A DNA stretch of 64,000 bases from Rhodopirellula sp. (GTDB taxonomy: Bacteria; Planctomycetota; Planctomycetia; Pirellulales; Pirellulaceae), in the NCBI GenBank assembly GCA_002701385.1, contig NZVD01000090.1, forward strand, positions 62,557-126,556. The letters are read 5' to 3'. The translations under genes and the position numbers were made by a program. Positions 7,341-55,634 of the stretch are shown piece after piece (position 1 is the stretch's first letter; every line of letters begins with the position of its first letter). The notes beneath the pieces were generated by a model. That model saw only the letters and a list, made by a program, of their open reading frames with translations, had not been told where the DNA came from and did not search any database.

Positions 7341-7341
7341 T

Positions 7342-8982: not shown

Positions 8983-9148
8983 ATCTGCGGAGACCTACTT
9001 TGGAAAATGGACAATCTCAGGTTTTGTAAGCAAGTTTGAGTCACTACCGTCTCGTTGGAAACTTAGAATGGTGTTAACTCAACCGGAGTTTAATTATTGT
9101 CGAGATTCGACTTCATATCTACAGAAGCAAATCAGAAGCCCCATTTAG

Positions 9149-33028: not shown

Positions 33029-34015
33029 TTAGCTCGTCAGGTCGACTGCCAATTTCATTGCCGTCTGCATATCGACGGGATCGGCAACTCCCTGCCCTGC
33101 AATGTCAAACGCTGTTCCGTGATCGACACTGCAGCGGACAATCGGCAATCCAAGTGTAACGTTGACAGTATGCTCAAAGTCATAGAGCTTCATGGGCACG
33201 TGCCCCTGATCATGATACATTGCTATCACCATATCACATTTACCACGAACAGCCTGCATAAAGAGAGTGTCTGCCGGATATGGTCCGGTGATTTGAATAC
33301 CTTCTGCCTGTGCCTGTTCAACGGCCGGTATGATTAGATCGATCTCTTCAGTTCCAAACATCCCGTTTTCACCGGCATGAGGATTTAAGCCGCAAATGCA
33401 AAGCTGTGGATTTTCGAATCCCAGATCGCGCATAGCCTGATTCCCAATTTGAATGGTCTCCAGAATCCGTTGCTGGTCGATTTTAGTTACGGCATCGAAC
33501 AGACTACAGTGGGTTGTCACGTGGATAACACAAACGGTTTCGTTCCACAGCATCATGCGGCACGTTTCTAATCCACACAACTCCGTGATGTACTCGGTGT
33601 GACCGCAGAAACCCTCAATCCCCGAAGCCGCGACGGCCTCTTTACTAATAGGGCCGGTCACCATAGCCCGGCTCTTACCGGCAATACAAAGCTCAGCAGC
33701 CATCTTCACGTATTGAATTGAAGCATGACCACAGGCGGCGTTAACTTCTCCTACCGTGACATCCTGTTTGGCAATCCGTCCGGCATCCAAGACGGCGACT
33801 TTGGAGTTTTCTTCCAATTCATCCAGAGACTGAATAACCTGATCGATTGTCAGGCCATATTGGTTTGCCAACTCCTGAACCTGCCAGGCCTCGCCCACAA
33901 TCACCCATCGCCCTAAAGCATGAAGACTGGAATCCCGACACGCTTTGATCGTAACTTCCGGACCAACACCGGCCGGATCTCCAATCGAGATCGTATAAAC
34001 AGGTAATGCCGCCAT
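33029..34015 (-). CDS. pdxA: 4-hydroxythreonine-4-phosphate dehydrogenase family protein
   Basis: ISIGDPAGVGPEVTIKA; MVTGPISKEAVAASGIEGFCGHTEYITELCG; CGLNPHAGENGMFGTEEIDLIIPAVE; GPYPADTLFMQAVRGKCDMVIAMYHDQGHVPMKLYDFEHTVNVTLGLPIVRCSVDHGTAFDIAGQGVAD. Confidence 0.92.
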   Translation of the reverse strand: MAALPVYTISIGDPAGVGPEVTIKACRDSSLHALGRWVIVGEAWQVQELANQYGLTIDQVIQSLDELEENSKVAVLDAGRIAKQDVTVGEVNAACGHASIQYVKMAAELCIAGKSRAMVTGPISKEAVAASGIEGFCGHTEYITELCGLETCRMMLWNETVCVIHVTTHCSLFDAVTKIDQQRILETIQIGNQAMRDLGFENPQLCICGLNPHAGENGMFGTEEIDLIIPAVEQAQAEGIQITGPYPADTLFMQAVRGKCDMVIAMYHDQGHVPMKLYDFEHTVNVTLGLPIVRCSVDHGTAFDIAGQGVADPVDMQTAMKLAVDLTS

Positions 34016-34720
34016 CTAGTTAGATTGCTTCCCACGAATGGGCCGCACGGAAGTTAGCGGGCCAAGTTCTGTAATCACCACATTTCGAAACCAAGTGGGA
34101 TTACCGTGTTCGGTCAACATGATTAATCCGTCACGGTTCATACCGAACCCTTCACGGTTTTTGAATTTACTTTCAGCCACGCGTTGTTTCCAGTCGCGTG
34201 AACCAATTCGGCCGTCCACCATTAACTCGCCGTTGAGATAATGACGTACGCGATTTCCCCGCACGATAATCTGACTCTGATTCCACTCTCCGCCAGGATG
34301 AAGTACTTTATTCCCTGATGGTTCCCAAATTGCATATAAGGAAGCCGTTGCATTTAGTGAGAATAAATCCGTTCCGTAGTTTTCATCATCGAGCATTTGG
34401 TATTCACAACCCAACCACGAATTATCGTACTGACGAACTCGGTACTTAATGCCACTATTGCCTTTCTCGCTCAACTTCCACTCCCAAGTCAGAACGAAAT
34501 CGCGGTACTGGCGTTTGGAGAGTAGCAATCCTGAGCCCCCACCTTCGCAAAGTAACGTATTATCTTCTTCGACTTTCCAACCTCGGGTAACAGCTTCACC
34601 TGCTCCAGTCACCCAGTGATCAAGCGAATCAGACAGAAGAGTCGATTTTGATGTTCCTGGCTGTGCCAACAAGGTGGACGAGAGTAACACGAGGGTGGTA
34701 ACGCTGACTAATCGAAGCAT
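34016..34720 (-). CDS. DUF1080 (3-keto-disaccharide hydrolase-like) secreted protein
   Basis: Signal peptide from ATG 34720; LLCEGGGSGLLLSKRQYRDFVLTWEWKLSEKGNSGIKYRVRQYDNSWLGCEYQMLDDEN; VRGNRVRHYLNGELMVDGRIGSRDW. Confidence 0.88.
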   Translation of the reverse strand: MLRLVSVTTLVLLSSTLLAQPGTSKSTLLSDSLDHWVTGAGEAVTRGWKVEEDNTLLCEGGGSGLLLSKRQYRDFVLTWEWKLSEKGNSGIKYRVRQYDNSWLGCEYQMLDDENYGTDLFSLNATASLYAIWEPSGNKVLHPGGEWNQSQIIVRGNRVRHYLNGELMVDGRIGSRDWKQRVAESKFKNREGFGMNRDGLIMLTEHGNPTWFRNVVITELGPLTSVRPIRGKQSN

Positions 34721-34790
34721 GGAATTGATCTCTATAAGACAGTGGTTCAACACATTGGAACGTTTTTAGTATAACACTGGAAAAACTTGA

Positions 34791-36062
34791 TTACAGCCGG
34801 TCTTGATGTGCCCATAAACCGAGAGCTGGGTTGGAAATATAGTAAAATCGTTCACCGTCTGATGTTTCATTCCAACCGTCTCGCAATGACTCAACCGGAT
34901 ACCGCTGAAGCATCGAATCTAAATCACCATATTCGTAACCGACGGATTCCACTTCTTCCTGTGTTAGCTCACCCGGGCAGTAGGTCACTTTGAAACGCCC
35001 TTCCGGGGAACCATGTATCAAGTGAGCCGCAGCAGACAGATTTGCTCGGAGGTCTTCATTCTCCTCCATAAACTTCATGATTTCCGGTGTCGTACGATAT
35101 CCATACTTTCGGATGAGAGCATCAATCTGTGGATCTTCACCAAAGATTCCCACTTTTGGCGCCAGCACGATTAACTCACCTTCATCAGCAATGGCCATCC
35201 GAGTTCGATAAATGGATTTGTTACCAAGCCAGGTACTGTGAAACTCCTCGGGATCGAGATAAACCACTACTTTGTCCAACGCTTTGTCGAGCTTCGTGAA
35301 ATTGACCTGAACGGATAAATCACAAGCCTTTTCAAAACACTCGTGATCATCGCCTATAAACAGTCCCCGGGTTACCAATGACCCGTCTTCACGAGCTCCG
35401 ATTACAGTGAGTACATAAAGCAGCGGAAGGTCCTGACAAAACTCATCCTGAGCATAATTGAGAATCTTCCGAAGGGGAGTATTGGCCCGCCCCATCATTC
35501 GCTCCATGCCATAAGCAGCTCCGATAAAGTGACTCTCATTAATCCCTTCCGAGCCACCGGTTCCGACAAAGATATTTTTGTTGTAATTGGCCATACCAAT
35601 CACTTCATGAGGCACCACCTGGCCAATCGACAGGATTAGATCATGTCCACCTTCCCAAACCAATTTATTTAACTGGGCGGGCCAGGATTGCTGCCAGATT
35701 CCCTCGGTTACCTCAGAAACAAATTCACTCGGGACTTCACCAATGGTCACCACATCTTCGCGCCAACGATGAGGACGAATCAAATCATGTGGTACTCCCG
35801 GAAACATCTTGTCGAGTTGCCAGGCTGGCATGGGAACGTGCGTCCCCAACGCAGGCATAATATCTGTCATTCGTTCCTGGTAATACTCGTATGCCATACA
35901 GGTCAACTGGCCAGCACGGCTGTTATAGCGAGTGAAGTCCGGAGGTAAAGCTAAGACGTTGGTGCGATTGCCCAGTTGATCAAAGACTCCGTTCAACGCC
36001 GTTTGCATTTCAGAGTCGCTAATCTCATGGGTGGCTGAACCGGCAGAATAATAGAGTGTCAT
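34791..36062 (-). CDS. LarA-like (DUF2088) nickel-pincer racemase/epimerase family protein
   Basis: LPPDFTRYNSRAGQLTCMAYEYY; ALGTHVPMPAWQLDKMFP; NYNKNIFVGTGGSEGINESHFIGAAYGMERMMG; overall LarA/DUF2088 pattern. Confidence 0.75.
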   Translation of the reverse strand: MTLYYSAGSATHEISDSEMQTALNGVFDQLGNRTNVLALPPDFTRYNSRAGQLTCMAYEYYQERMTDIMPALGTHVPMPAWQLDKMFPGVPHDLIRPHRWREDVVTIGEVPSEFVSEVTEGIWQQSWPAQLNKLVWEGGHDLILSIGQVVPHEVIGMANYNKNIFVGTGGSEGINESHFIGAAYGMERMMGRANTPLRKILNYAQDEFCQDLPLLYVLTVIGAREDGSLVTRGLFIGDDHECFEKACDLSVQVNFTKLDKALDKVVVYLDPEEFHSTWLGNKSIYRTRMAIADEGELIVLAPKVGIFGEDPQIDALIRKYGYRTTPEIMKFMEENEDLRANLSAAAHLIHGSPEGRFKVTYCPGELTQEEVESVGYEYGDLDSMLQRYPVESLRDGWNETSDGERFYYISNPALGLWAHQDRL

Positions 36063-36083
36063 AAAATTACTTTTTGAAGTGGG

Positions 36084-36986
36084 TTAGGCCCAGTCCATCG
36101 CACCTAGCGATTCCAATGATTGTTGCAATTCCGTTCGTTGCGAATCGGTCAAAGGTCTAAGCGGTAAACGTACCGTTCCACAATCCACACCTAAAAATGC
36201 CATCGCCTCTTTGGATGCTGCGGCAAACCCAGGTTTTTGAAACGCGCGGATGATATTTACACTCAGGTTTTGAAGTTCCTGTGTCTTAGCTGTGTCGCCT
36301 GATTCAACCGAGTCAGCAATGGCGTTGTATAGTTTGGCAAAGTGGTTGTAAGTAGATCCGACTGCGCCACGGACCCCGTACAACCATGCTGCGGATAACA
36401 TCTCATCAAAGCCAAAAAGGATGTTGTAGCGGTCTGGGTCAACACGCAACAACGATTGCAAATCCATAAGGTTTCCGTTGGTGAACTTAAGGCCAGCTAA
36501 ACTGGGAAGCTCGGTCTTAGCCCGTTCCAGTAATTCAATCATCGACAATTCCACGTGCGTCATCACTGGAATGTCATAGAAATAAAACGGTAACTCAGGA
36601 GCAGCGGAACAAATCTCCTGGAGATATGGAATCAACAAATCCATACTGGCTGGGCGAAAAAAGCACGGAGCCATTGAAGCAATTGCGTCAGCCCCAGCCT
36701 CAAGACTCTTGGCCGCCAGGGCCTTGGCTACCGGCATGGAGTTATCACCTACATGACAGATCAGTGACAATTCTGTCCCTTGGACAACGTCGCCCCATCG
36801 CTGAAAGAGTGCCAGGCGTTCATCCGGTGACAGACTATGGCATTCACCTGTTGTGCCTGCTACGTAGACTCCTTTGCAACCTGTATCGACGCAACGCTGC
36901 GCCTGTAGTTCAACTGCATCTAGATTTAGTTCCCCAGATACATCTAAAGGGGTATGGACCGCGGGAATTAATCCATTTATTGCCAT
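36084..36986 (-). CDS. DapA/NanA-type dihydrodipicolinate synthase family aldolase
   Basis: GLIPAVHTPLDVSGELNLDAVELQAQRCVDTGCKGVYVAGTTGECHSLSPDERLALFQRW; ICHVGDNSMPVAKALAAKSLEAGADAIASMAPCFFRP; FYFYDIPVMTHV; SLAGLKFTNGNLMDLQ. Confidence 0.93.
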   Translation of the reverse strand: MAINGLIPAVHTPLDVSGELNLDAVELQAQRCVDTGCKGVYVAGTTGECHSLSPDERLALFQRWGDVVQGTELSLICHVGDNSMPVAKALAAKSLEAGADAIASMAPCFFRPASMDLLIPYLQEICSAAPELPFYFYDIPVMTHVELSMIELLERAKTELPSLAGLKFTNGNLMDLQSLLRVDPDRYNILFGFDEMLSAAWLYGVRGAVGSTYNHFAKLYNAIADSVESGDTAKTQELQNLSVNIIRAFQKPGFAAASKEAMAFLGVDCGTVRLPLRPLTDSQRTELQQSLESLGAMDWA

Positions 36987-37282: not shown

Positions 37283-40200
37283 TTAGTCCCACGAATCCAG
37301 TTTTTCAATCCAGCCTTTAATCCTCTCTTCATGATTTTTCCAGAGGTGGATCACAACCAATATTAGGATCCCTAGGAGAATGACCAGACTAAAGATCATG
37401 ATGAGGTTATTGTCACCCTTGATCGCATTCAGAGCAGCAAATACCAACGATAAAAGCGTCATCACCAAGAAGATGAGTCCTAGATAAATAAACTGTGACA
37501 TCCTGAACAGTGCGCCAACGCCAACTCCGATCAAGGATAACACGCCCAGTATAAGCATTTGGCCGATATGACCTTCAGCTCCTGCCCAATCAATGACCAT
37601 TTCAAAACTTGCCGTGAGATAAACCAAAGTCAAACACATATACCGAATCGCTGAGATCTGCCTACGGGCAAGCTTTTCCTTAAATATCTGAGCCACAATC
37701 AATAGCGATATCGCAGGCGGGATCACCCATAGTTGTGGGTCATCCGCAAACGTCAGAGTGTCATTCGAAGTGAAGTACAACCAGAGGCTGGCATTTCCGG
37801 CAATGGCCGCCACGACCGAATGAATAAACGATTTCCGCAGACAGGCCATCAGGACGTTGAGGAGAGCTGCTCCAAAGAATAGCCATGAGTAATCTGCGAA
37901 TAAAGCGCCTCCGTCTGACGGAAATAACCATAAAGTTAATATCGGAATTGCCGGCAATAAGAAAGCAGTGTTGTGAATCGGTTCAGATAATACATGTGAT
38001 TCCCGCTTCCGGAAGACCTCAGAAATAAACACGCCCATAAAGGCGATCACGAGCAGGACGAAAGGCCAGTAATCCCCTAACACACCGAACCAATCCGGCT
38101 TGCTTAAATACACATGTCCGAACAGGACTAACAGCAGAATCTCCGCAACGTAGACATAACCCTGTTGGATTCGCACCGTTGTCTGTTGGATTGGACTCAA
38201 TTCCGGATTTAGACCGACAACAATTAATGTGGCTGCAATTGCAACAATTCCCAACCCGATGCCGATCACTTCAAAAGCAGTTGGCATAAATTCAACACCT
38301 GCCTGACGTCGTAATCCCAGATAGACTTCGATCACTAAAGTTACAAACAGCGTCAATAAAGCAACGGCCGTTGTATTGATGCGAATACGCCGCAATGGCT
38401 CGAACCATTCGTTATCACCAGGAAGCCTAGCCAGCTTAAAGACAAAAGCGACGGCAAGAACAGCCGTCATCATAAAGACCCGGTCAATACGTTGATACCA
38501 AACGTTCGCTTCGAACAACCCGTTCGGAAGATTCGCCCATAACAAGACAATGCCAGCAACAAATGGTGCATTCAGCACCAGGTGTCTGCGAACCCCAGCC
38601 AGAGGTGTTTCACGAAGGACTTCGAGTCCCACAATAACCAATATAGGTATCAAGGCTGACAGGAATCGATATGCACTAACGCCTTCGTTAGCATTATTCG
38701 ACAGATAGAATGTGCTGAAGAATGTAAAGGCTAACAATATCAACCCAAGACTACTCTGCAGACCAGCAATGATATGACGACTTGAAGTCATCCAACGGGC
38801 GGCATCGGTGATACCGATTCTAGCCAAGCCACCAGACACCGTATCTTGCCAGCGATAAATCGCACCCCACAAGGCCAGATAGATTGCGAGTGTCAAACAA
38901 ATGAAGAATACGAACTTCTGAGTATTAGGACTCTCGGCCGATTCAAAACAAACGGTTAATAACGTAGCCGCCAGAGTACTACCATAGGCATAGATGCTCA
39001 ATGTAGAGGAACGTTCTGAACTGACATAGCGAGCACAACAGTAGAGGCTAATCAGAGGTAGTAACAAGACAGCCCATTCAAATTCTATTCCGATCCACTG
39101 AGTGACACCTTCATTAATGGAACTCAACATGGCCACCACAGAAACGCCCAACAATCCCGTCACACTGAGGTTTGTAAGCCAGCGAGCGAAACGACCTATC
39201 AGAGGATCTTCCTGTTCCGGTAATCCAGTGAAGACACGGCTTACTCGGTTACTGAGTAAATACAAAACAGCGAGGACTGAAAAGGATGCAAGTAGCATGC
39301 GGATGTGAACATAGCTCTCCGCTGAAATCTCCCTCATTCTTGCAAAGACATTGGCTGTTTCATCCATGGCACCCTGCAGCATGAAAATAGTCAAAACAGA
39401 CCATAGAGTGAATAAGATGGAAGTTAATCCGGTGGTCAATGCATCCTGGTGGATGGAACTAAAGAAGACATACAACAGGAGGACCAGACTAATCAAGCAC
39501 CAATGTAAGGCATAGGACGAGAACCAGGCGTTGATGGGATCTTGGCCTAAGAAGTAGAGACAACCTGCCACTACTAAACCGGTTAGATAACTCACCCAGG
39601 TAATCCAAATTCCACCGATGCTGGAAAGACTTGACCACTGTCGCATCGTTTCCAACTTTCCAACGACTTGTGTTCTCACAAAATTAACCAACGCCGATAA
39701 CGAGACTATCAATAATCCAAGCCAACCAAGCATCTGGCCAAATCGAACACTGTCAGATGGTTTGGCTAATTCAAGATGTCCGAACAGGATTGCGATCAGC
39801 ACCATCGAAGCCAAAGCATGGAACGGATTCCCCGTCTGCAACAACCCTAAGTCTTTCACGAAGACAGGTCGGAGACCTACATATGCCAACGTAAGCACAC
39901 TACATACCAGTCCGACGCTAATTCCAATCAATTCGAATGGTGTCACAATACTGTTTACATTGGCATACCCTTCCCTGTAAATCATAAATTCCAATACCAA
40001 TGACAGAGCCAGTGTGAGGACTGAGATCCCCGCAATGTTAGCGAGCCATTGCTCGATGAACGACCGCCACTTGCCGAGGTTTGTCCAGAGATAAACAAAA
40101 TAACCCACCGTCGCCATCAAAGCGAAAGTTATATAGACCCGCGCTACGCGATGGTACCAATTCGCCATCGTTGTTACTTCCTCGCTGATGCCTGCCCATA

Positions 40201-43200
40201 GAAGAATAACGATTGAAACTAACGGCAAATTGAGAATTAGATGTTCGCGGAAATTGGCAAACGGAGTATCACGTAGGGCAGCAAATCCGATTAGGACCAG
40301 TAATGGCGCCCCTGCTGCCAGATAACGATAAATCCCTACATCATCATCCGTCGCCTTCAGATAAAAAGTACTCAGCAATGCAATCACCGAAACGATGACT
40401 CCCAGGTAAAACTGGAGCCTTGCTATTCCATGATGATTACGACAGAGCAACTCATTTGCTCCGGGGATTCGGAGTTTTTCCAAGGCTGCTGTTGCATGGG
40501 AACTATAGCGATAGATCAATCCCCAGATGGAATGAAAGCCTGCCAGTATCATCCAAAACGCAAATTGATAAATCTGCCTATCAGCTAGCAACCAGTTCCT
40601 TTCAGTATCAGCAAATTGATAGATCAGGCAGGTTGTAGCGATGGAAAATCCAAAGAAGTAAAGTAACGGAACGAGTCGATCAAACCGCGAAACCTGACTA
40701 CTTACCCAAAGCCCAAGGAGCGTCAATAGCACGATCCCCCACTCCAAATCAAAATCGAACCAATCTAGATTCGGGTTATCTGGTAATGCCCAATAGGCGG
40801 CGAGCGAATGAATAACAAGCAACGAGACGCACAGTGTCATCAAACCACGTAAGGCTGTGAGTGTGATCTGCTCCTTATGCGCAGAAAAACCAAGCCAACG
40901 CTGACATTGAGACTGGATCAATGAGGTTGTGAGCACATAGCCTACAAATCCCGCAATGAACAATCGTCCTAACGCCACACTTTTCAGGTCTAGAATCTCT
41001 GGAACGTTGGCGAGGAGACCTAGATTTAGGAACTCGGGATCATCCATTGTGAGACTGCTCAGTTTCAGGCTCGCCAGTACAACGAGAGGAAGCGTCAGCA
41101 ATAAACTCATGGTTATCGTTGTGCCATTTTGAACCAATTGGCTCATCGTAATACTCAACAAAACCACCACCGTCATCAGGCTAAGCATCATTCCATCGTC
41201 GTAAGTGACACTGACGTTGATACTTCCACTATCTGGCATGCTCCAGAAAATCGCGAAAGCAACATAAATCGCACTGGCTAAAGCCGAAACCCAGCCAACC
41301 CAACGCCCCTGAACCTGGCGCACTGTCAGCCAGTGAGATTCCTCAGAATCGGCTTTAAACTTTCCAAGTTTGAGGCAAGTGGCAAAACCGACGACACATG
41401 CAAATAAGGCGACAATCCAGCCAATCGCTTGGAAGAACAGGACGCTTGTCCCCGGCAAAGATACGTCAGGTACTGCTAAGTGAGCGATGGTTGCATTCAA
41501 AGCAACTGTACCGATTAGTACAAAGGACACTCCACGGTCCCCTTGACTAACGCGATTAAACATCCAGCAGACCGTTGGCAATAACAATACACAGACAAAG
41601 GCGGACGGATTTGCAAATGCGGATCTCCATCCTATCCATTCATCAACAGACTGAATTTCTCCAATCACTACCAAAGCGTCCAGATTGACTACCAGGGCAT
41701 ATAAACAAACACCGCATGCCGTGATGAAGTAAACAAAGTTTGATGCGGACGACGTTTGAAATAGCTGTTGACGTCTTCTGCCATGGGCTTTGAGTCCCGC
41801 TGCAGACCAAGCCAGCCCATACAATCCGATGCCAATTAATCCCCATTTAACACTCCCGAACCCTTCAGCAAATGTCAGATCCAGACCGTCTGCCCAAATT
41901 GGAATCAATGAGAAGAACATCCAACCCAATACCCACATTGGTAAGGCAGCGATCAGGTACAAGGGTCGTAAAGAGCGGACGGCACAGATCCAGGCTGCGA
42001 CAACTAGTAGGAAGAACGGTCCCGCAAAATTCACCATCGCCATACGGAGTGACTGGCTCGCCGGCTGTAAAAGTACAATCTCATTCAATTCCGTCCCAAT
42101 GCCTGAAACGGAAGACGTATAAGCAAAATGGGCGGCGGTTAAGATGACCACGGGTAAGGAGGCAGCGATAAAAGAAACGATTCGCAAGGCCATCCAGGTG
42201 TATTCGGCATGCTCACCTTCCGATTTCTCATCCTGATTCTTCATCAGACGCGGATAATTTTCTTGTAAAGCTCGCCACCAAAAACGATCGGTACAAACCA
42301 AGGCAGTCACGACGACACCGAAAATCCCATATCCCCATTTGAGATAGTGAATCAAACTCATGTTTGCGGAAGCCGCACTTTCAGCGAGATAGGTGCTGGC
42401 TAAAATCGGCAACGCGCTTAATGTCAATAATCCACAGAAGCTAGAAATACGACGTTGCCTATCCGGAAGCACACAAATCCAAGCCAGTAAGTTTAGAGCC
42501 CACAGAATCCAATCCGACGTTCCAATCGCTGAATCTTCCACAGACAACCCGCCGTAAAACTGCCTGAATCCATCGAGGAATGCTGAATCCGGATAAATGC
42601 CTTGAAGGGGTTGAACAAGCGAGAAAACCCAGATGAAATAAACTGCCATCGTGGCCAACGCATGTAGTAAGAAGTCCACATACATCAAGTCTGTCACGAC
42701 GATACCGTTTAGGTGGCTCGATTGCTGGCAGACCTTTCTGAATGCCGTCCAACCTACCATCCCAACGGCCAGCACCATCATTTGTAATTGCAAGTGCTCC
42801 CAACCCCAGAATTGGAAGGACTCCACGGCATGTGTCTGCAGCAAAGTCGTGGCAGCGGCGATGGTAAAGATCAACTGAATTTGAAAAAACATCCAGGTCC
42901 AGTCGGTTTTGTGCCGGAGGCCAAGCAATACTGCGACACCAGTCAATAATACACCTTGTGTGACGGCAGCGGCATAAATGCCCTGCCCTAGATAGATGTA
43001 AAAGACATTGAGTGTTGCCACCACAAAGTAGGCAAGCGTCGTCATTGTCAGTGACCATTGCCACTCAAACTCTGAAGGCAATTCTCCTTCACTAGCAAAT
43101 CTCTCCAGTCGAGACTTCCGCAAACTCCACTGAGCAATCAGTGTAACTACATAAGCTCCTAAAAACGTCCAGCTAAACACAACCAAACGTCCCAGAAGAT

Positions 43201-45535
43201 TCTCTTCAGGCAACCATCCTAAATTCAGGATCAAGTCGGTGTTGGCAAATTTCAACGAAGTAACAGCAACCAGCCCTGTAGCAACCCGATGCACCAATTT
43301 CCTGGACGTAAACAAGGAAGCCACCAGACTTGCGATTGCGTAAACTGCGAAGACCACCAAAGTCAGATCTGAATTGGTCGCTTCCAGAAACGGAATATGA
43401 GAAGCGAACGCACTGGCCAATCCCACTCCCGCTAACAACAATACACCTAGGTAACCCGCTTTACTAAACTCCGGACGTTCACGGTTCTCAATTTTCTCAA
43501 AGAAGAAGTGTAAAACCCCTGCAATGACAGCAGTCACCGTAAACAAGATCGAGGTCATTCCGTTGGCAAGCTCATTACGTAATTGCACAAACGTCAAATC
43601 GTCCACATATCGGCCACTCAGATAGACACTCCAAACTCCAATGCCGACGCATAAAGTTCCGGCGGCCGTGAGAAACGTAATTCGGGTCACATAACCAAAA
43701 ATCAAAGCTAAGACAGCGCCAACAAAACTGGCGATGATCATGCTGTTAACATCGGGGACGGCCAACAGCATCGCAAGGATGATTCCCATCGAACCAGTCA
43801 CTGCCATCCACATGCCGCCCATTTGCAGTTTCAAATGATCATCGCTTTCAATCCGTCGATAAATCAACATGCCCGCGGAAACCACAATGAAACAAAGAAT
43901 CATGAGGGGATTAGAGAGATACTGCGATAGTTCAATTCCCTGTTCCTGTGTATGGAGACGGGAAAACATGAGCGCGATACAGGCTCCTAAAGAAAACACG
44001 CCCAAGCCCAGGACTCGCAGCAGAGAAAATGCGTCATCTGGTGTTACGTCTTCGGATTTACGAAAGTATCGATGTTCGCTAAGTATGGCGAAACTGATAA
44101 AGGCAATGGCTGGCAAAAGCAACACATTGGTACTCAACGGTGTTGGAATAAAGTCCTCTCCCGTCATTGCTAACTTAATCACCAATTGACATAAACATGG
44201 CCCCATTAATGCCAAAATCAATGGCCACGGTCGCTCTGGTGCCAAGAGACGAGCTGAATAAAAACTCATCGCACCAAAACTCACTCCGGCAACCACCACC
44301 GCCAAAATGAAAAAGATCCCCTGCTCTGCTAACGACGTGTCTCTCATCGTCGTCATTAAGACATTTAGCGGAATCAAAAGGTTTCCGATGAGTAAGACGA
44401 CTCGACTCGAAGACGCCAGGTTCCACTTCTTTAATGAGTAGATTCCAAAGATATGGAATAACGAAACGATGGTCAGGAATACAACCGACGAAAGGTAAGG
44501 AATATTTTTGTAGGCTATGTTGAGAGCTGTTACTAGCCCAATTGAACCAATGATGATTAACAATCCAGCTACGAATTCACCAAGCTTAATGTTGCTTTCA
44601 TCCATGAAGCCACGCAGAATGTCGGACAATCTGCGCGGAGGCTTGCTTGGTGGCACCTCAACTGCAGGAGTCGCCGGGCCAACAGCTTTCGGAGCTTGAG
44701 ATATTGCAGGTTCGGTATCTGGAACAACCCGGGCGACAGCAGGTTGCACCTGTGCGGTTGCCGGACGATGAGGCTTGAATACCGGAATCGCTTTCGGCGG
44801 AGCCGGAGCAACAGGCTCGGCGTCTGTAGCCGAGGAATCATCAGTGGGTTCGGCTGTGTCCTCTGTAACTTGACCATCGGATTGGACAGCAGATTGTCCG
44901 CCCTCCGCTTCTACCTGAGTAGGCTTAATACCTGGCTCGACTTCTACGGATTCTTCCGCTTCCGCTGTTGGCTCCTCCGGCTCTACTTCTTGTTCTACCT
45001 GTTGGGGTTCTAGTGCAGCCAAAGCATGAGGTTCTTCGGCGAGAATTGCCTCAGGTATTGTTTCTGTGGAGACTGACGCGGGTGGATCTTTTGCAAGTTG
45101 ACTGAAATCCAAAACCTCTTCATCGGCCTGTTGAAGCTCGGAGCTACCGGATGTCTGTAGGGCATTCTTGAATACCTGAGGGGCCTTTCCTCCAAAGACC
45201 TCCTGATCCGCGCGGGTTAAATTCGAAATACGAATCGCTTCAGAGTTATCTACCCATTCCCACTTTTGCCAGTTGGCAATCCTTACAAATAAATTGGGAT
45301 AGAATGAGGCCGGCGTTGTCTTTTTGTTAAATGCAATTCCACAGCGCTGGCAAAATACTGCATCATGACGATTCAGGGCCTGACACTTGTCACATGTTTT
45401 TTTTGCATTCTTACCAATTCGACCAACTAACAGAATAGTAAGACCGACAATGGCCAAAATGATAACAAAGCAGCAACCGCCTTCTTCGAGAAAATCGATG
45501 AATCCAATTAGCAGATTGGAGTTCAATGACAACAT
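37283..45535 (-). CDS. Giant polytopic membrane protein (2750 aa): N-terminal zinc ribbon, acidic Pro/Glu/Ala-rich linker, then ~2400 aa of transmembrane helices in repeated modules (DUF2157/DUF2339-like flavour)
   Basis: KTCDKCQALNRHDAVFCQRCGIAFN zinc ribbon; LGEFVAGLLIIIGSIGLVTALNIAYKNIPYLSSVV start of membrane region; uninterrupted hydrophobic helices to the C-terminus; internal repeats described in findings. Confidence 0.85.
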   Translation of the reverse strand: MLSLNSNLLIGFIDFLEEGGCCFVIILAIVGLTILLVGRIGKNAKKTCDKCQALNRHDAVFCQRCGIAFNKKTTPASFYPNLFVRIANWQKWEWVDNSEAIRISNLTRADQEVFGGKAPQVFKNALQTSGSSELQQADEEVLDFSQLAKDPPASVSTETIPEAILAEEPHALAALEPQQVEQEVEPEEPTAEAEESVEVEPGIKPTQVEAEGGQSAVQSDGQVTEDTAEPTDDSSATDAEPVAPAPPKAIPVFKPHRPATAQVQPAVARVVPDTEPAISQAPKAVGPATPAVEVPPSKPPRRLSDILRGFMDESNIKLGEFVAGLLIIIGSIGLVTALNIAYKNIPYLSSVVFLTIVSLFHIFGIYSLKKWNLASSSRVVLLIGNLLIPLNVLMTTMRDTSLAEQGIFFILAVVVAGVSFGAMSFYSARLLAPERPWPLILALMGPCLCQLVIKLAMTGEDFIPTPLSTNVLLLPAIAFISFAILSEHRYFRKSEDVTPDDAFSLLRVLGLGVFSLGACIALMFSRLHTQEQGIELSQYLSNPLMILCFIVVSAGMLIYRRIESDDHLKLQMGGMWMAVTGSMGIILAMLLAVPDVNSMIIASFVGAVLALIFGYVTRITFLTAAGTLCVGIGVWSVYLSGRYVDDLTFVQLRNELANGMTSILFTVTAVIAGVLHFFFEKIENRERPEFSKAGYLGVLLLAGVGLASAFASHIPFLEATNSDLTLVVFAVYAIASLVASLFTSRKLVHRVATGLVAVTSLKFANTDLILNLGWLPEENLLGRLVVFSWTFLGAYVVTLIAQWSLRKSRLERFASEGELPSEFEWQWSLTMTTLAYFVVATLNVFYIYLGQGIYAAAVTQGVLLTGVAVLLGLRHKTDWTWMFFQIQLIFTIAAATTLLQTHAVESFQFWGWEHLQLQMMVLAVGMVGWTAFRKVCQQSSHLNGIVVTDLMYVDFLLHALATMAVYFIWVFSLVQPLQGIYPDSAFLDGFRQFYGGLSVEDSAIGTSDWILWALNLLAWICVLPDRQRRISSFCGLLTLSALPILASTYLAESAASANMSLIHYLKWGYGIFGVVVTALVCTDRFWWRALQENYPRLMKNQDEKSEGEHAEYTWMALRIVSFIAASLPVVILTAAHFAYTSSVSGIGTELNEIVLLQPASQSLRMAMVNFAGPFFLLVVAAWICAVRSLRPLYLIAALPMWVLGWMFFSLIPIWADGLDLTFAEGFGSVKWGLIGIGLYGLAWSAAGLKAHGRRRQQLFQTSSASNFVYFITACGVCLYALVVNLDALVVIGEIQSVDEWIGWRSAFANPSAFVCVLLLPTVCWMFNRVSQGDRGVSFVLIGTVALNATIAHLAVPDVSLPGTSVLFFQAIGWIVALFACVVGFATCLKLGKFKADSEESHWLTVRQVQGRWVGWVSALASAIYVAFAIFWSMPDSGSINVSVTYDDGMMLSLMTVVVLLSITMSQLVQNGTTITMSLLLTLPLVVLASLKLSSLTMDDPEFLNLGLLANVPEILDLKSVALGRLFIAGFVGYVLTTSLIQSQCQRWLGFSAHKEQITLTALRGLMTLCVSLLVIHSLAAYWALPDNPNLDWFDFDLEWGIVLLTLLGLWVSSQVSRFDRLVPLLYFFGFSIATTCLIYQFADTERNWLLADRQIYQFAFWMILAGFHSIWGLIYRYSSHATAALEKLRIPGANELLCRNHHGIARLQFYLGVIVSVIALLSTFYLKATDDDVGIYRYLAAGAPLLVLIGFAALRDTPFANFREHLILNLPLVSIVILLWAGISEEVTTMANWYHRVARVYITFALMATVGYFVYLWTNLGKWRSFIEQWLANIAGISVLTLALSLVLEFMIYREGYANVNSIVTPFELIGISVGLVCSVLTLAYVGLRPVFVKDLGLLQTGNPFHALASMVLIAILFGHLELAKPSDSVRFGQMLGWLGLLIVSLSALVNFVRTQVVGKLETMRQWSSLSSIGGIWITWVSYLTGLVVAGCLYFLGQDPINAWFSSYALHWCLISLVLLLYVFFSSIHQDALTTGLTSILFTLWSVLTIFMLQGAMDETANVFARMREISAESYVHIRMLLASFSVLAVLYLLSNRVSRVFTGLPEQEDPLIGRFARWLTNLSVTGLLGVSVVAMLSSINEGVTQWIGIEFEWAVLLLPLISLYCCARYVSSERSSTLSIYAYGSTLAATLLTVCFESAESPNTQKFVFFICLTLAIYLALWGAIYRWQDTVSGGLARIGITDAARWMTSSRHIIAGLQSSLGLILLAFTFFSTFYLSNNANEGVSAYRFLSALIPILVIVGLEVLRETPLAGVRRHLVLNAPFVAGIVLLWANLPNGLFEANVWYQRIDRVFMMTAVLAVAFVFKLARLPGDNEWFEPLRRIRINTTAVALLTLFVTLVIEVYLGLRRQAGVEFMPTAFEVIGIGLGIVAIAATLIVVGLNPELSPIQQTTVRIQQGYVYVAEILLLVLFGHVYLSKPDWFGVLGDYWPFVLLVIAFMGVFISEVFRKRESHVLSEPIHNTAFLLPAIPILTLWLFPSDGGALFADYSWLFFGAALLNVLMACLRKSFIHSVVAAIAGNASLWLYFTSNDTLTFADDPQLWVIPPAISLLIVAQIFKEKLARRQISAIRYMCLTLVYLTASFEMVIDWAGAEGHIGQMLILGVLSLIGVGVGALFRMSQFIYLGLIFLVMTLLSLVFAALNAIKGDNNLIMIFSLVILLGILILVVIHLWKNHEERIKGWIEKLDSWD

Positions 45536-45680
45536 AGCTATACCCTTGGAAGGAGCGCGATTGTAATAGTCTATCTATTTTATCGACCGCTGAGATTTAT
45601 CAGCAATCATCAAAATAATACAATGAAGGCCAGTGACGTATTAATAATGCTACATAAATGGGGCTAACTGATTGAAACGT

Positions 45681-46391
45681 ATGACAAAGACAGCACTCAT
45701 CACCGGTGGAACAAGCGGAATCGGACTGGGAATCGCCCTTGGATTCCAGGCGGCTGGTTACCAAATTGTCGTGACGGGAGTGACTGAACAGGAAGTACAG
45801 CAAACGCAAGAACAGCATCCTGGGCTGGACTGTCGACAACTGGATGTCACGTCAGATTCTCAGGTCTCCCAATGCTTGGCAAATCTGGAGGAACTCGATG
45901 TGCTTATCAATTGCGCCGGAGTGATCCTTCGTGACAACCAAGAGCACACGCCGGAAGGCTTTCAGTCAGCCATTGATGTTAATCTCAATGGAACAATGCG
46001 AATGTGTTATGCAGCCAAGTCATTACTGCAACACAGCTACGGGTGTGTCATTAACACGGCATCAATGTTGAGTTTTTTTGGAAGTGGATTTGTACCTGCC
46101 TACAGCGCCAGTAAGGGAGGGATCATGCAATTCACCAAAAGTCTAGCGATCGCCTGGGCTCCGGATAAAATTCGCGTCAATGCACTCGCTCCAGGATGGA
46201 TCCAAACCGAATTAACCAGACCCTTGTATGAAGACGAACAACGAAGCCGTCAGATTACCGACCGAACTCCTATGAACCGCTGGGGGAAACCTGCAGATGT
46301 CGCCGGCCCGGCACTCTTTCTCGCCTCGAAACAGGCTGAGTTCATTACCGGAGTCACACTACCTGTCGATGGCGGCTACAGCATCATGTAG
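45681..46391 (+). CDS. Short-chain dehydrogenase/reductase (SDR)
   Basis: TALITGGTSGIGLGIALGFQAAG; LINCAGVI; YSASKGGIMQFTKSLAIAWAPDKIRVNALAPGWIQTELTR; TGVTLPVDGGYSIM. ATG at 45681 preferred over upstream TTG. Confidence 0.95.
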   Translation: MTKTALITGGTSGIGLGIALGFQAAGYQIVVTGVTEQEVQQTQEQHPGLDCRQLDVTSDSQVSQCLANLEELDVLINCAGVILRDNQEHTPEGFQSAIDVNLNGTMRMCYAAKSLLQHSYGCVINTASMLSFFGSGFVPAYSASKGGIMQFTKSLAIAWAPDKIRVNALAPGWIQTELTRPLYEDEQRSRQITDRTPMNRWGKPADVAGPALFLASKQAEFITGVTLPVDGGYSIM

Positions 46392-46428
46392 AAAGCTGAA
46401 GATTAGCGGGCTCTCTAGGTGAGGTTCT

Positions 46429-46917
46429 CTATCGAATAAATCGTTCGACAAAGTCTGCTCCCAAACCAACACGCTCAAAGTGTTCCATACACATTTCAAT
46501 TTTTTTGTGAACGTCATCGTAGCCAACAGTTTGATGGTCTTCATCCAGATAGATTAATGCTCCGCTGATATGAAACAGGGTAATCATTTCTTCAACCCCT
46601 TCATCACAAACCAGCGTATGAACGTCTCCAGGTGGTTCATAGACATAGCTACCCTCGTTCGCCACCCAATCATGTTCCAGATAACGCCAGCTTCCTTTGA
46701 TAACATAACCATGGACGGGTGCCGGATGGCGATGTCGACTAAGTACACCGGATTTTCGTACTTTAAGTAGATTCACCCATTGCCCTGCGGTACGGTTGAG
46801 GTGCAACGGTCGAAACCAAACATTTTCCGCCTGAGGGACCCACAGCCGCTCGTCTTCCGGAATGGCGTCGGTTGTATAATCTGAGATTCCGTATGGAAGA
46901 GATTCAAAGAACGCCAT
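46429..46917 (-). CDS. Cupin-domain protein similar to 2,4'-dihydroxyacetophenone dioxygenase-like enzymes
   Basis: NLLKVRKSGVLSRHRHPAPVHGYVIKGSWRYLEHDWVANEGSYVYEPPGDVHTLV: cupin His motifs. Confidence 0.7.
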   Translation of the reverse strand: MAFFESLPYGISDYTTDAIPEDERLWVPQAENVWFRPLHLNRTAGQWVNLLKVRKSGVLSRHRHPAPVHGYVIKGSWRYLEHDWVANEGSYVYEPPGDVHTLVCDEGVEEMITLFHISGALIYLDEDHQTVGYDDVHKKIEMCMEHFERVGLGADFVERFIR

Positions 46918-46976
46918 GCTTTTCTGATTCCAAATAAAGAGTGGTGAAGGTCTGGGGCCGAGTGCCAGAGTTGTCT

Positions 46977-47492
46977 TTAGCTTAGAGCAACAGACGCCCC
47001 TTTGATCACAGCAGCAATCCGAACGGCTTCATGAACATGGTTTTCACTCAACTCTGCGGTTAGTTTCGCTTCATGGGATTGAACGCATAGCTCACATCCT
47101 TCCAGCACGGCACAGGCCATCGAGCACAATTCAAACAATGCCGTGTTGGTCGCAGGACTCGTCATCCGGTTCATTCGTAAACCGGCTCGCATTTGTGAGT
47201 AACTTTCTTTTCCGACCATATGACGAAAACGATAATAAACCGTATTCATCGCCATAATTGCCGCCGCTGCTTTGGCATCTTCTCTGGCTTCCACACTCAA
47301 TGCTTCCCCGGCATCCGCATCAATCGCGGCCACGAGTTTTTCATCCTGAATGAAGTAAGCCGAACAGAGAGCTACAGCCCAGGTTTCTTCGGCACTCAAA
47401 GTTTGGCTCTGAGTCAGCACGGATGACAGATTCAACTTAATATCCTTTACCGGATCGGTCATCTGACTTCGCAACGCGTTAATGTTATCCAT
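46977..47492 (-). CDS. ahpD: AhpD-like alkylhydroperoxidase (carboxymuconolactone decarboxylase family)
   Basis: MAMNTVYYRFRHMVGKESYSQMRAGLRMNRMTSPATNTALFELCSMACAVLEGCELCVQSHEAKL: CxxC...H AhpD signature. Confidence 0.85.
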   Translation of the reverse strand: MDNINALRSQMTDPVKDIKLNLSSVLTQSQTLSAEETWAVALCSAYFIQDEKLVAAIDADAGEALSVEAREDAKAAAAIMAMNTVYYRFRHMVGKESYSQMRAGLRMNRMTSPATNTALFELCSMACAVLEGCELCVQSHEAKLTAELSENHVHEAVRIAAVIKGASVALS

Positions 47493-47891
47493 AGCGATTC
47501 TTACTCCCAGGAACTTCTATCTATATTTGCCTATCTACGTGTTTCTATATATAGATATGGCATTTCGAGTTGATGTGGCAATGAGTCTTCAATCTATCAG
47601 GTTCACCCCCCCTTTGAAAATCCGCAAAGAGGTCATAAAAACACTGTAAATACAGGGGATTACTGAACCTAAGTCAGATTTGGGGGGTTAATCCACTCGA
47701 TTGTAGCCATGTTGAATCTTAACGGTTATTCCAGTTATAGAGGTTTTTCTAAAGATGAGGGTTATTCTGGCCGAAAAACGCATATAGCGGGTGTTAGGTT
47801 CGTTTGTTCCTACGTGGACATATTAACCAAACCCTGACTTAAAACACCTCGCCGTGTGCGAGCAAGCAACCTGTCATTGGTAAATCCAATT

Positions 47892-48890
47892 ATGAAAAAA
47901 CAAACGCTTTGTTCACTGCTTACTTTTGGTAGTCTTGTCGTTACCGGCTGTGTCGGCACACCGACAATGCCCTTCGAAGATGTCCTTACGACGGCACCGT
48001 TATTTAGAACATTGGAAAAGCAGGTCGTCGAACAGGAGTTGGATGAAGCCGGCACCACCTCGCTCTCGAAATCAGCTCAGCAAGAGCTAAATCGATTTGC
48101 CAAGTCTCAAAAAGTGGACAAACGTATTCAGCTTGAAATCGAAAAAGGAAACAGCTTCTTTGACAAAGGTGATTTTGACACCGCCATTGCCTGCTTTGGC
48201 CATGCGATCCGGCTCGACCCTAACAATGTTGAAGCCTATTACCTACGTGGAATCGCTCATGGAGAGCTAGGTGACACGGCTAATGAAACTGCCGACTTTG
48301 GAACAGTCATTCGACTGGACAACAACCATGCAGAAGCCTTCAATCGACTGGGCGTTGCTTATGCGAATCAAGGTAGTGTTGAAATTGCGATCACCAATTT
48401 TAGCGAGGCCATTCGTATCAATCCGGACTTCGTAGAAGCATACAACAATCGTGCCGTCGCCTTTGCCAATCACGGAGCGATCGAAAAGACTCTAACAGAT
48501 CTCTCGGAGGCTATACGCATTAACCCGGATAACGCCAATGCCTATTTCAATCGCGCTATCATCTACAACAACATTCAGGAATTTGACAAAGCGGTCACCG
48601 ACTTCACCGAGACTATCCGTGCAAATCCGGACCACGCTCGAGCTTATATGAGTCGAGCCGACATTTTTGCCAGTCAGGGTAAAAACAAAAAGGCGATCGC
48701 AGATTACACGATCGCGATCGAGTTAAAACCAAAATGGGCTGAGGTTTATTACAACCGAGGACTGGCCTTCAAGGCTCATGGGCAGCAGGATGAAGCTGTG
48801 AAAGACTTCAGTAAAGCCATTGAGCTGAATCCAAAAGAAACTGAAACGAAGCCAGTTTCTTTTCGGGCCACAACGGCCTCGCCTGAGTAA
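47892..48890 (+). CDS. TPR-repeat lipoprotein
   Basis: Lipobox VVTGC; consecutive 34-aa TPRs (FDTAIACFGHAIRLDPNNVEAYYLRGIAHGELGD..., VEIAITNFSEAIRINPDFVEAYNNRAVAFANHGA..., etc.). Confidence 0.92.
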   Translation: MKKQTLCSLLTFGSLVVTGCVGTPTMPFEDVLTTAPLFRTLEKQVVEQELDEAGTTSLSKSAQQELNRFAKSQKVDKRIQLEIEKGNSFFDKGDFDTAIACFGHAIRLDPNNVEAYYLRGIAHGELGDTANETADFGTVIRLDNNHAEAFNRLGVAYANQGSVEIAITNFSEAIRINPDFVEAYNNRAVAFANHGAIEKTLTDLSEAIRINPDNANAYFNRAIIYNNIQEFDKAVTDFTETIRANPDHARAYMSRADIFASQGKNKKAIADYTIAIELKPKWAEVYYNRGLAFKAHGQQDEAVKDFSKAIELNPKETETKPVSFRATTASPE

Positions 48891-48910
48891 CACCAATCTC
48901 CAAATACGAT

Positions 48911-48951
48911 AAAAAATCCTGCCTTGCTGAATTGCCAGGCAGGATTTTTTT
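48911..48951. terminator. Bidirectional Rho-independent terminator between the TPR gene (+) and ahpC-like gene (-)
   Basis: AAAAAATCCTGCCT-tgctgaattgcc-AGGCAGGATTTTTTT: perfect arms flanked by A-run and T-run. Confidence 0.9.
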
Positions 48952-48980
48952 GTGTCACTGTGAAACGTGATCCGAGGCTC

Positions 48981-49502
48981 TTATAGAGTAGGATCGCCTT
49001 TCTTCCAGTTACATGGGCACAATTCATCCGATTGAATTGCATCCAGTACTCGCAGAATTTCGCTCACATTACGGCCAACACTCAGAGCATTAGCACTGGA
49101 CCATTGGATGACTCCATTGGGATCAACCAGGAAGGTCGCTCGCAGGCAAACGTCCGCGTTTGGATCGACGATACCAAGATCGTGAGCTAGTCGTTGAGCT
49201 CCAATCAGTGGGTAGGCAAGGTCTTTCAGATCGTCGTGAGATTGACACCATGCCAGGTGACAGTATTCATTGTCGGTGCTACCACCAACCACTTCACAAT
49301 CTCGATCGTTAAACTCTGACAGCTGTGTATTAAACTCAGCAATTTCAGTCGGGCAAATGAAAGTAAAGTCCTTCGGATAGAAGAAATAGCAAACCCATTT
49401 ACCATCGTAATCTGCGTTAGACAGACCTTTAAGGCTCTCGGGATCAGAACCGACATTGCACTTTACGTTGTACTCTGGAAACTTATCGCCAACTGTAAGC
49501 AT
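48981..49502 (-). CDS. ahpC: AhpC/TSA peroxiredoxin
   Basis: DGKWVCYFFYPKDFTFICPTEIAEFN peroxidatic Cys motif; VIQWSSANALSVGRNVSEILRVLDAIQSDELCPCNWKKGD C-terminal CPCNW. Confidence 0.92.
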   Translation of the reverse strand: MLTVGDKFPEYNVKCNVGSDPESLKGLSNADYDGKWVCYFFYPKDFTFICPTEIAEFNTQLSEFNDRDCEVVGGSTDNEYCHLAWCQSHDDLKDLAYPLIGAQRLAHDLGIVDPNADVCLRATFLVDPNGVIQWSSANALSVGRNVSEILRVLDAIQSDELCPCNWKKGDPTL

Positions 49503-49616
49503 GGCTTATTCTCTCCTGAAAATTCATAAACTGTTCGAGCTTTGATTCGCTCGTTAAACGGTTAAATTCGTTGATGCTGTCAATGTATCACAGCAATACC
49601 TGACGCGAAAGATGCC

Positions 49617-51881
49617 CTAATCTGAAGACGGTTTCTGTTTATCTCTGTAAGCCACACGAAGAATCGCTGGTAACAAAACCATATCGCCGATGAAGGCGAC
49701 TGCTACAGAAATACAGGCGAGTTTAGAAAACAGCTGACTATGGGGCATCACGCTGATCGCACTAGCCGAAAATCCGGCTATCAACACTAAAGTACTAACC
49801 ACCAATGCGGCTCCCACAGAAGTGATGGAATTCCGTATCGCGTCATCGACGTTCTGCCCTTCAGCCAATTCCCGTCGAAAACGGACCAGAAAGTGAATCG
49901 TATCATCCACAGCAATTCCCAGACTAACCGTGAACAGTAGTACACTCGTCAGTCGCAATGGTTCGCCTGTCCAAACCAGGTAGGTCGCCGTGAATAGAAG
50001 CGGCAAACAATTCGGTAGCAAACTGACAAGGCCCATTTTGACCGAACGGAACATAGCAGTCAGAACCACAATAATCACGGCAGCAGCAATCACCAGTGAC
50101 TTCACTAAATCGTTGATCATGGTGGATAGATTTCGCGAGGCAACCACGGCAGAGCCGGACACAGATAACTTGACACCTGAATGTCTGGATTCGATAACCG
50201 CTAAGCGATCACGAAATCGCTGAATCACTTGACGGTGGTAATACATCCCCTGATCGGCTAGACGCGCGACGACAATCGCTCGGCCAAGGTCCGGTCGCAC
50301 CCACTGGTCTGCGATGGCTTGCGGCAACGAAATCAACGGGCTTTGGTCTACGACTTCCCTGAAATTCAGAATAGAGAGCGGGTTCATAATATCGTCGTCC
50401 CCGTTAATGTCAGCTTCAACTTCACGAAGCACCGCCATTGGATCCAACTCACGACCGTCTGGCAGAGTCGTTTCCGGTGTCGTTTCTGACCGCGGATCCC
50501 ATTCGACGAGGACGATCGCACTCAACATACCGCCAAACTGTTGGTCGACTTCTCGCAACGCGATTTCAGCCTCGCTCCCTTTCGGAATAGACTCTGCGAT
50601 ATGGCTATCCGGATGAAGCTGAAGCGTGGTCAATGTCATCCAAATCAGAAATGCGGCAAACAACCCCAGCACGACGAAACGATACTTCAAGATAAAGTCA
50701 GCATAGGAAACTGAAAACTTCTTGAGGCAGAGTGAGTCGCGACTCACTCGCCCTTGATAAGCTCCTCCGACAATTCCGGTTGATGCCAACCAGGGAACAA
50801 CCACAACAACCGCCAGGAAAGTAATTAATGTACCGACCGCACAGGTAATACCGAACTGACTAATCACTTCGATACTACTAACGCTCAGCGACCCAAATCC
50901 AATTGCTGTGGTAATGGATGTAAATGCACAAGCGACACCCAAGCGTCGGACTGCCAACCACGCAGCCCGTTCCGGTTTAATGCCACGAACACGCGACTCG
51001 CGAATATCAAAGACGAGATGGACGGCATCAGTTAACCCAATCACGACAACCAGTACTGGCAGAATCGTGGTGATGAGATTTATCTTCACTCCAGTCAGAC
51101 TCAGGAGCCCCAATGCCCAGAAGCTTCCGATACCGGCCCCGGCGACTGCCATAAATGCCAACGCCCAATGACGAAACGCTAACAATGCGATGCAAATGGC
51201 GACACACGCGCCAGCAAGCATCAAGTTAAAGGTGTCCGTCTTAATCGATCGAAAAATCTCAACTCGCACAGGCGGGAGTCCTGTCAGGTATGCCTCGATT
51301 CCGGAGTCGGCACGCCATCGTCTTAGCACTTGTTGTAAGTGATCCACGGTTGGTTGATAATCACTCACTAATAGATCCTGATTACCTAGCTGGATAACCA
51401 TCATCATGGATTTACTATCGGCCGTAATCAGATTCCCACCCGAGATTGGGTGAGTAAGCACTTCCTCTTCAACGTTGGACCAATCGACACCGGGGGTATC
51501 GGCCGGAGGTACGAGGGGTCTGGGCAGTGGGTCACATACGAGCATTTCCGGACTGAACACCGAAACAACATGACTCACCAGCTCGTCTTCCTCCAGAGTC
51601 AAAACTAGCTGCTGCAGCTGAGCGATCGAGGCGGGAGTAAAAAACGTATCCCCTGGTCGTTTGAGAATCACCAGACAGTCATTTTCGTCCGGACGAAATT
51701 GTTTGAAGATTTCCTCTAACTGCTCAAATGGCTCATCGTTGGTTCGGAAGAGTCCCCGGGCTTCGTTATCGAATGAGAATCGTTGAAATCCAAGCAATGA
51801 CAACAACGTGATAATCACGATGGTCAATAGAAGTAAACGCTGGCGATGCAGGTAGAGAATACGTACCCAGCCGCTATTCAT
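49617..51881 (-). CDS. RND/MMPL-family exporter
   Basis: Two repeats of large periplasmic loop plus TM bundle; ITTILPVLVVVIGLTDAVHLVFDIRE; LLFTVSLGIAVDDTIHFLVRFRREL. Confidence 0.9.
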   Translation of the reverse strand: MNSGWVRILYLHRQRLLLLTIVIITLLSLLGFQRFSFDNEARGLFRTNDEPFEQLEEIFKQFRPDENDCLVILKRPGDTFFTPASIAQLQQLVLTLEEDELVSHVVSVFSPEMLVCDPLPRPLVPPADTPGVDWSNVEEEVLTHPISGGNLITADSKSMMMVIQLGNQDLLVSDYQPTVDHLQQVLRRWRADSGIEAYLTGLPPVRVEIFRSIKTDTFNLMLAGACVAICIALLAFRHWALAFMAVAGAGIGSFWALGLLSLTGVKINLITTILPVLVVVIGLTDAVHLVFDIRESRVRGIKPERAAWLAVRRLGVACAFTSITTAIGFGSLSVSSIEVISQFGITCAVGTLITFLAVVVVVPWLASTGIVGGAYQGRVSRDSLCLKKFSVSYADFILKYRFVVLGLFAAFLIWMTLTTLQLHPDSHIAESIPKGSEAEIALREVDQQFGGMLSAIVLVEWDPRSETTPETTLPDGRELDPMAVLREVEADINGDDDIMNPLSILNFREVVDQSPLISLPQAIADQWVRPDLGRAIVVARLADQGMYYHRQVIQRFRDRLAVIESRHSGVKLSVSGSAVVASRNLSTMINDLVKSLVIAAAVIIVVLTAMFRSVKMGLVSLLPNCLPLLFTATYLVWTGEPLRLTSVLLFTVSLGIAVDDTIHFLVRFRRELAEGQNVDDAIRNSITSVGAALVVSTLVLIAGFSASAISVMPHSQLFSKLACISVAVAFIGDMVLLPAILRVAYRDKQKPSSD

Positions 51882-51922
51882 TGTGGTCGATTCCTGACGT
51901 TGTTTGGCGGATCTCTGCGAGG

Positions 51923-55389: not shown

Positions 55390-55451
55390 GAACGCTTTTC
55401 CACTATAAAAACAGGGTTACAAGCTCCACCTTATCAAAACTACCCCCAATA

Positions 55452-55544
55452 AGTGACACCCACTCTTAAGAAATCTCCTGAATCAGTGTCACCCACTCTT
55501 GACCGGTCGCATCAATCAGTTCCATCAATCAGTGCCACCCACTC
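55452..55544. promoter_or_regulatory. Three imperfect direct copies of AGTG(A/T/C)CACCCACTC upstream of the sigma-54 activator gene
   Basis: Copies at 55452-55465, 55485-55498 and 55531-55544, each containing the AGTG-N5-CACT dyad. Confidence 0.6.
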
Positions 55545-55571
55545 GTTGTAAATCCTGATGTGGGTGAATTC

Positions 55572-55621
55572 ATCATTTTGATAACACAGCACTTAGGATG
55601 TATGGTATCATATTGATAACA
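55572..55621. promoter_or_regulatory. Two operator-like dyads ATCATNTTGATAACA just upstream of the activator start codon
   Basis: ATCATTTTGATAACA (55572-55586) and ATCATATTGATAACA (55607-55621), 14/15 identical, 35 bp apart, each with ATCA-N3-TGAT inverted symmetry. Confidence 0.6.
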
Positions 55622-55634
55622 GGAGCAAATCAAC

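Follow-up and report, generated by a model that had tools for sequence, protein, structure and literature searches.

A giant planctomycete membrane protein with a tandemly duplicated block and a C-terminal domain related to SCO7613_CTERM

The gene, its product and its neighbours

The window, a stretch of 64,000 nucleotides, contains one uninterrupted ORF for a 2750-residue polytopic membrane protein. The features of the gene are listed in Table 1. The coordinates and the length given by the original prediction were exact; the strand had to be added and is minus, the plus strand being full of stops. Full-length, collinear orthologues that lack internal stops are present in three genus-mates, with identities of 89, 84 and 66%. 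The overall pN/pS of the gene is 0.22–0.31, with the value of 0.22 obtained against the nearest orthologue. In that same comparison, pN/pS is 0.05 for the N-terminal membrane part, 0.07 for the C-terminal domain and 0.6 for the linker. Based on the full-length orthologues and on the pN/pS of the conserved ends (0.05–0.24), we conclude that the gene is real and constrained by purifying selection.

Table 1. Features of the giant-protein gene, with positions in the window
Feature	Residues	Position	Strand	Basis and remarks
ORF, 2750-aa polytopic membrane protein, stop codon included		37283..45535	minus	ATG start; collinear full-length homologues
First TM helix	20–38	45422..45478	minus	Hydropathy
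Zinc-ribbon-like CxxC-x10-CxxC	48–65	45341..45394	minus	Sequence; Pfam DZR E=0.051, below cut-off
Ala/Pro/Glu-rich linker	68–300	44636..45334	minus	Composition; fast evolving, pN/pS about 0.6
Conserved N-terminal membrane entry, probably DUF2157-like	305–395	44351..44623	minus	Invariant E320, V335 and P389; sub-threshold PF09925 matches on family members
TM array with ancient repeats spaced about 280–315 aa	396–1356	41468..44350	minus	Profile self-comparison; AlphaFold model of 300–1356
Module A of the tandem duplication	1357–1921	39773..41467	minus	BLAST; keeps R1737, W1823, E1849, P1890 and H1920
Module B of the tandem duplication	1922–2481	38093..39772	minus	BLAST; keeps R2290, W2377, E2403, P2444 and H2474
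Conserved C-terminal domain, homologous to SCO7613_CTERM by profile comparison	2482–2750	37286..38092	minus	NxxLW and PQxWxIPPA motifs

The protein has the layout that had been read from the sequence, namely a zinc ribbon, an acidic linker and then ∼2400 residues of TM helices. The two cysteine pairs of the ribbon are 48CDKC51 and 62CQRC65; the linker looks disordered, is 233 residues in length and contains 39 acidic and 16 basic residues. The expected “tens of TM segments” amount to 72 by the GES hydropathy scale and 61 by the KD scale. With roughly 60–70 predicted TM segments, the protein would rank, to our knowledge, among the most TM-rich single polypeptides.

The genes on both sides are conserved within the genus. 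Downstream, on the minus strand (33029–36986), lie genes for a DHDPS family protein, a Lar_N-like protein, a 3-keto-disaccharide hydrolase and PdxA; together they look like a sugar-acid catabolic cluster. The upstream block (45672–57494) contains a divergent SDR, a ChrR-type cupin, a CMD protein, a TPR protein, an AhpC/TSA protein and an MMPL exporter-like protein, together with Abhydrolase_10, a weak GH88 match and a GAF/sigma-54 activator. No neighbour of the giant-protein gene was found to be conserved outside the genus. In other genera, the family gene is in changing company; Ser/Thr kinase genes lie beside it at two loci (L028 and L033), related ORFs at two more (L032 and L035), and a sigma factor gene at one (L026). 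Since its neighbours are conserved within the genus only, the giant-protein gene behaves as a stand-alone gene.

Recent and older repeats in the TM array

Residues 1357–1890 align with residues 1922–2444 over 542 columns, with 28% identity and an E-value of 6.8e-50. The alignment was obtained by BLAST of the segment against the rest of the protein, which was used instead of whole-protein self-BLAST, as the latter gave the identity diagonal only. As a control, the 2750-residue protein was shuffled ten times within 10-residue blocks; the best E-value of the shuffled proteins was 0.03. In the profile–profile comparison, copies A and B lie 552–555 residues apart, in agreement with the two modules proposed at a constant spacing of ∼553 residues. 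The self-alignment, which could have found nothing beyond hydrophobic composition, gave a significant repeat above the shuffled controls. Residues 1357–1921 and 1922–2481 are thus genuine tandem copies, and the suggested internal gene duplication was confirmed. Single-copy members conserve five positions, an R, W, E, P and H, and each of the four long forms retains all five in copy A as well as in copy B.

Although the duplication is real, it is not the basic plan of the protein, as its presentation as the architecture had implied; it is a recent, genus-restricted expansion in a family that is otherwise single-copy. Almost all complete homologues at other loci are 1890–2300 residues in length (one has 2399) and carry one copy of the block, whereas the doubled form (2700–2752 residues) was found only in the source genome and three genus-mates. 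In the 2399-residue member (L090), the block region spans 814 residues, compared to the usual about 530, possibly due to a second, independent expansion. In the block tree, the A copies form one clade and the B copies form another, each with support of 100/100, within the lineage of the source genome itself. The single blocks of two short genus-mates (L086 and L087) are placed together with the A copies, with support of 99/98 and on long branches; along their length, the short forms resemble copy A at first and copy B from near residues 1880/2430 onwards. With branches of this length, the tree cannot decide whether the duplication precedes the split from these two short forms. The presence of long and short forms inside one genus provides a natural test of the role of the repeated block.

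Using windows of 280 residues, hhalign detected further internal similarities, spaced about 258–315 residues apart. Residues 1179–1357 pair with 1457–1643 (E=1.7e-7); residues 859–945 and 352–486 pair with 1172–1259 and 663–798, respectively. Outside the recent duplication, 47 of the 255 window pairs scored above 33, although the windows overlap and the 47 pairs are not independent. The highest control scores were 32.9 for reversed windows, 28.4 for DUF2339 and 20.4 for an MMPL transporter. These profile comparisons indicate that the unit from which the array likely grew by repetition had roughly eight or nine helices (about 280–315 residues), with the 560-residue duplication as the latest step. 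The more divergent third module that had been placed upstream is supported in so far as ancient repeats in that region exceed the reversed and forward controls; however, they are spaced about 280–315 residues apart and lie in another register than the proposed one. Two earlier pairings (910 with 1593, and 1129 with 1717) were not reproduced; the profile alignment pairs 908/1516 and 1005/1595.

AlphaFold2 models of two parts of the protein are all-helical. The model of residues 1922–2750 has a mean pLDDT of 83.2, a pTM of 0.70 and 23 helices of at least 16 residues; that of residues 300–1356 has a mean pLDDT of 81.7, a pTM of 0.57 and 31 helices. Searching the PDB by sequence gave no match to the protein, and searching it by fold gave no significant match to either model. 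In both cases, and independently, the entries that look most similar are solenoids (TPR, HEAT and designed toroids) and not transporters; with E-values of about 0.02 and TM-scores of 0.1–0.2, they are not significant. These matches give a hint of helical-hairpin packing and no fold assignment.

Homology at the two ends and distribution of the family

Apart from a marginal match to the ribbon, none of the Pfam and NCBIfam models recognises the 2750-residue protein. In line with the original prediction, neither the Pfam and NCBIfam searches nor the PDB searches gave a functional assignment. Taken strictly, the accompanying term “undescribed” is not supported: no Pfam or NCBIfam model recognises this subfamily, but its C-terminus is homologous to a catalogued family. 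In deep-profile hhalign, the C-terminus matches SCO7613_CTERM relatives with 99% probability (E=4.8e-18); the window test gave 108.5 bits, compared to 12.8 for the reversed control. The SCO7613_CTERM model itself (NF047321) has no match at E≤1 in the 2750-residue protein. It directly matches two other giants (G133 and G112) with E-values of 2e-9 and 5e-9, at 38–38.9 bits against a curated cut-off of 45. Judged by these profile comparisons, the C-terminal domain of the giants is homologous to SCO7613_CTERM.

More distant matches are proteins of 1215–1367 residues, which share both ends with the giants. DUF2157 has matches in their N-terminal helices, the best at E=3.9e-6, and the C-terminus of one passes the NF047321 cut-off; a model of the region of residues 305–395 of the giant finds relatives of 1215–1344 residues, with E-values down to 1.5e-15. 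The DUF2157 model (PF09925) does not match the 2750-residue protein itself, and direct profile–profile comparison of its N-terminus with DUF2157 is weak (20%, E=0.001, hhalign). In several other giants, PF09925 matches the same N-terminal region with 17.9–23.9 bits, below the gathering score of 32.4; the first four helices align there with model positions 40–124, and those of the 1215–1367-residue relatives do likewise. The suspected relation to DUF2157 is therefore weakly supported at the N-terminal helices by sub-threshold matches, all of them below the gathering score. The first helices are likely a divergent DUF2157-like module, which would cover about 90 of the 2750 residues.

The family gene was found in all nine sampled genomes of the source genus. 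The C-terminal domain profile detected it in 45 of the 148 genomes from the order, a few of these matches being distant, and in 20 of the 296 genomes from the phylum, where several matches are distant. Named relatives come almost throughout from planctomycetes, such as Rhodopirellula and Gimesia, which agrees with the planctomycete origin that had been implied. One member (L121) comes from a genome labelled Anaerolineae, where it lies on a contig of 2.5 kb, and is probably planctomycete contamination. At another locus (L116, about 4049–9981), the family gene is split into overlapping ORFs of 612 and 1410 residues; this apparent frameshift may be an assembly error.

Among 63 family members, the CxxC/CxxC pattern is present in 28 and missing from 35; the zinc ribbon does not characterise the family. 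Conservation in 90% or more of the 63 members is seen mainly at Trp, Pro, Gly, Phe and Leu columns; the polar residues that reach it are N315, E320, R2290, E2403, H2474, N2581, Q2601 and R2631. No catalytic pattern was seen among the conserved columns. Taken together, the 2750-residue protein belongs to a family of giant polytopic membrane proteins from planctomycetes; its placement in the family is solid, and the architecture is well supported. It is a novel, unannotated variant of a kind of membrane protein that is already known but uncharacterised.

Possible role and comparison with known membrane proteins

Our best guess, which we hold only tentatively and at clearly less than even confidence, is that the protein may be a helical scaffold, non-catalytic and embedded in the membrane, that serves envelope or lipid homeostasis. 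It is based on the lack of a catalytic pattern, the stand-alone gene, the length variation by block duplication and the possible superfamily link considered below. In such a scaffold, the helices would form hairpins, packed side by side into an extended row within the membrane, with no catalytic centre. Each block repeats the conserved polar set (Arg, Trp, and the intramembrane Glu and His), which could bind lipid head groups, and the number of blocks would set the capacity and not the chemistry. In this view, the small ribbon at the N-terminus would be a cytosolic addition that the protein can do without. Against the scaffold stand the facts that homology to DUF2339 is not established, that the partner family DUF3999 is absent and that the solenoid matches are not significant.

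The conserved intramembrane Glu and His would also suit an ion- or lipid-translocating activity. Arg, Glu and His are kept in both duplicated blocks, and duplicated TM bundles are common in transporters, so a transporter, channel or lipid flippase built of repeated TM bundles has to be weighed. We consider it unlikely, because no Pfam or NCBIfam transporter model and no significant solved structure, by sequence or by fold, matches the protein, no ATPase or exporter partner gene is conserved across genera, and the array is unusually large and variable in length. Glycosyltransferases, acyltransferases and polymerases of cell-envelope polymers have been recognised among large polytopic bacterial proteins whose function was at first unknown, and polar residues are conserved in or near the C-terminal domain of the giants. 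A membrane-embedded enzyme of this kind is nevertheless very improbable, as no conserved acidic loop motif, no nucleotide- or lipid-donor motif, no family match and no biosynthetic neighbours conserved across genera were found.

The DUF2157-like helices might instead sense the bilayer, with the cytosolic ribbon or linker relaying the signal, as in a sensor of membrane or envelope stress. A genomic survey of the PSP and Lia systems merges DUF2157 into the LiaI-LiaF-TM domain, which it calls sensory (PMC11237479). The 2750-residue protein does possess both a cytosolic ribbon and a long linker, and kinase or sigma factor genes lie near the family gene at the loci named above. However, the ribbon is missing from more than half of the members, the linker is fast evolving, and 60–70 TM segments are more than a sensor needs. 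The kinase neighbours are a minority, and Ser/Thr kinases are common in planctomycetes. We therefore regard a sensor, too, as rather unlikely. Going further than the scaffold itself, the giants could make up a structural class of their own, that of alpha-solenoids which are embedded in the membrane, are adjusted in length by duplication of hairpin blocks and act as a lipid reservoir or membrane scaffold; we give this extension little credence. If true, the genus-restricted doubling of the block would be a capacity increase caught in recent evolution.

The closest known systems are SCO7613_CTERM, DUF2157 and Arc3A/DUF2339 proteins. What is published on SCO7613 deals with PHA accumulation in Streptomyces coelicolor, and no function was assigned to the giants from it; the plasmid search found no SCO7613-like reference from another phylum. 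In planctomycetes, the SCO7613_CTERM relatives share the plan of the giants: an optional ribbon, a linker, DUF2157-like helices, a TM array and the C-terminal domain. Different from the giants, which are about 2000–2750 residues in size, most other relatives have about 1200–1800 residues, and the 560-residue duplication is new relative to them.

DUF2339 had been named as a second family to check. Its N-terminus matches DUF2157 in hhalign (92%, E=8e-7), and the two Pfam families appear to overlap or to be related. The Pfam DUF2157 model also matches the N-terminus of three DUF2339 proteins (L203/L249, one protein of genome G121; L251; and L252), once above the cut-off. For the giant itself, PF10101 (DUF2339) gave no match to the 2750-residue protein, and the C-terminal match to DUF2339 (53%, E=1.3e-4, hhalign) is equalled or exceeded by a non-collinear window among windows of equal size. 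The link to DUF2339/Arc3A is suggestive only, as far as these profiles go. True DUF2339 genes are separate from the giants in planctomycetes. A mutual exclusion of the two (0/18 versus 8/22 in 40 genomes) did not survive a larger check (4/40 versus 3/20), in which four genomes had both. DUF3999, the family of the partner Arc3B, is absent from the source genome and eight genus-mates. In a planctomycete of the same order (genome G027, contig C130, 17261–20577), a DUF2339 gene adjoins a DUF3999 gene, forming an Arc3A/Arc3B-like pair.

Arc3A is a stand-alone membrane protein of very large size, dense in TM segments and apparently non-catalytic, that limits lysophospholipid accumulation and in this way protects against phospholipase toxins (PMC8926400); a further paper confirms Arc3A-type protection for lipase effectors (PMC12663445). 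By comparison with Arc3A, which keeps lysophospholipids from building up, the giants may act in envelope or lipid homeostasis. With the giants, an unannotated family of planctomycetes joins a widespread superfamily of very large membrane proteins that look non-enzymatic, in which we found a phenotype for the presumed cousin Arc3A only. Like Arc3A, the giant is very large, dense in TM segments, apparently non-catalytic and encoded by a stand-alone gene.
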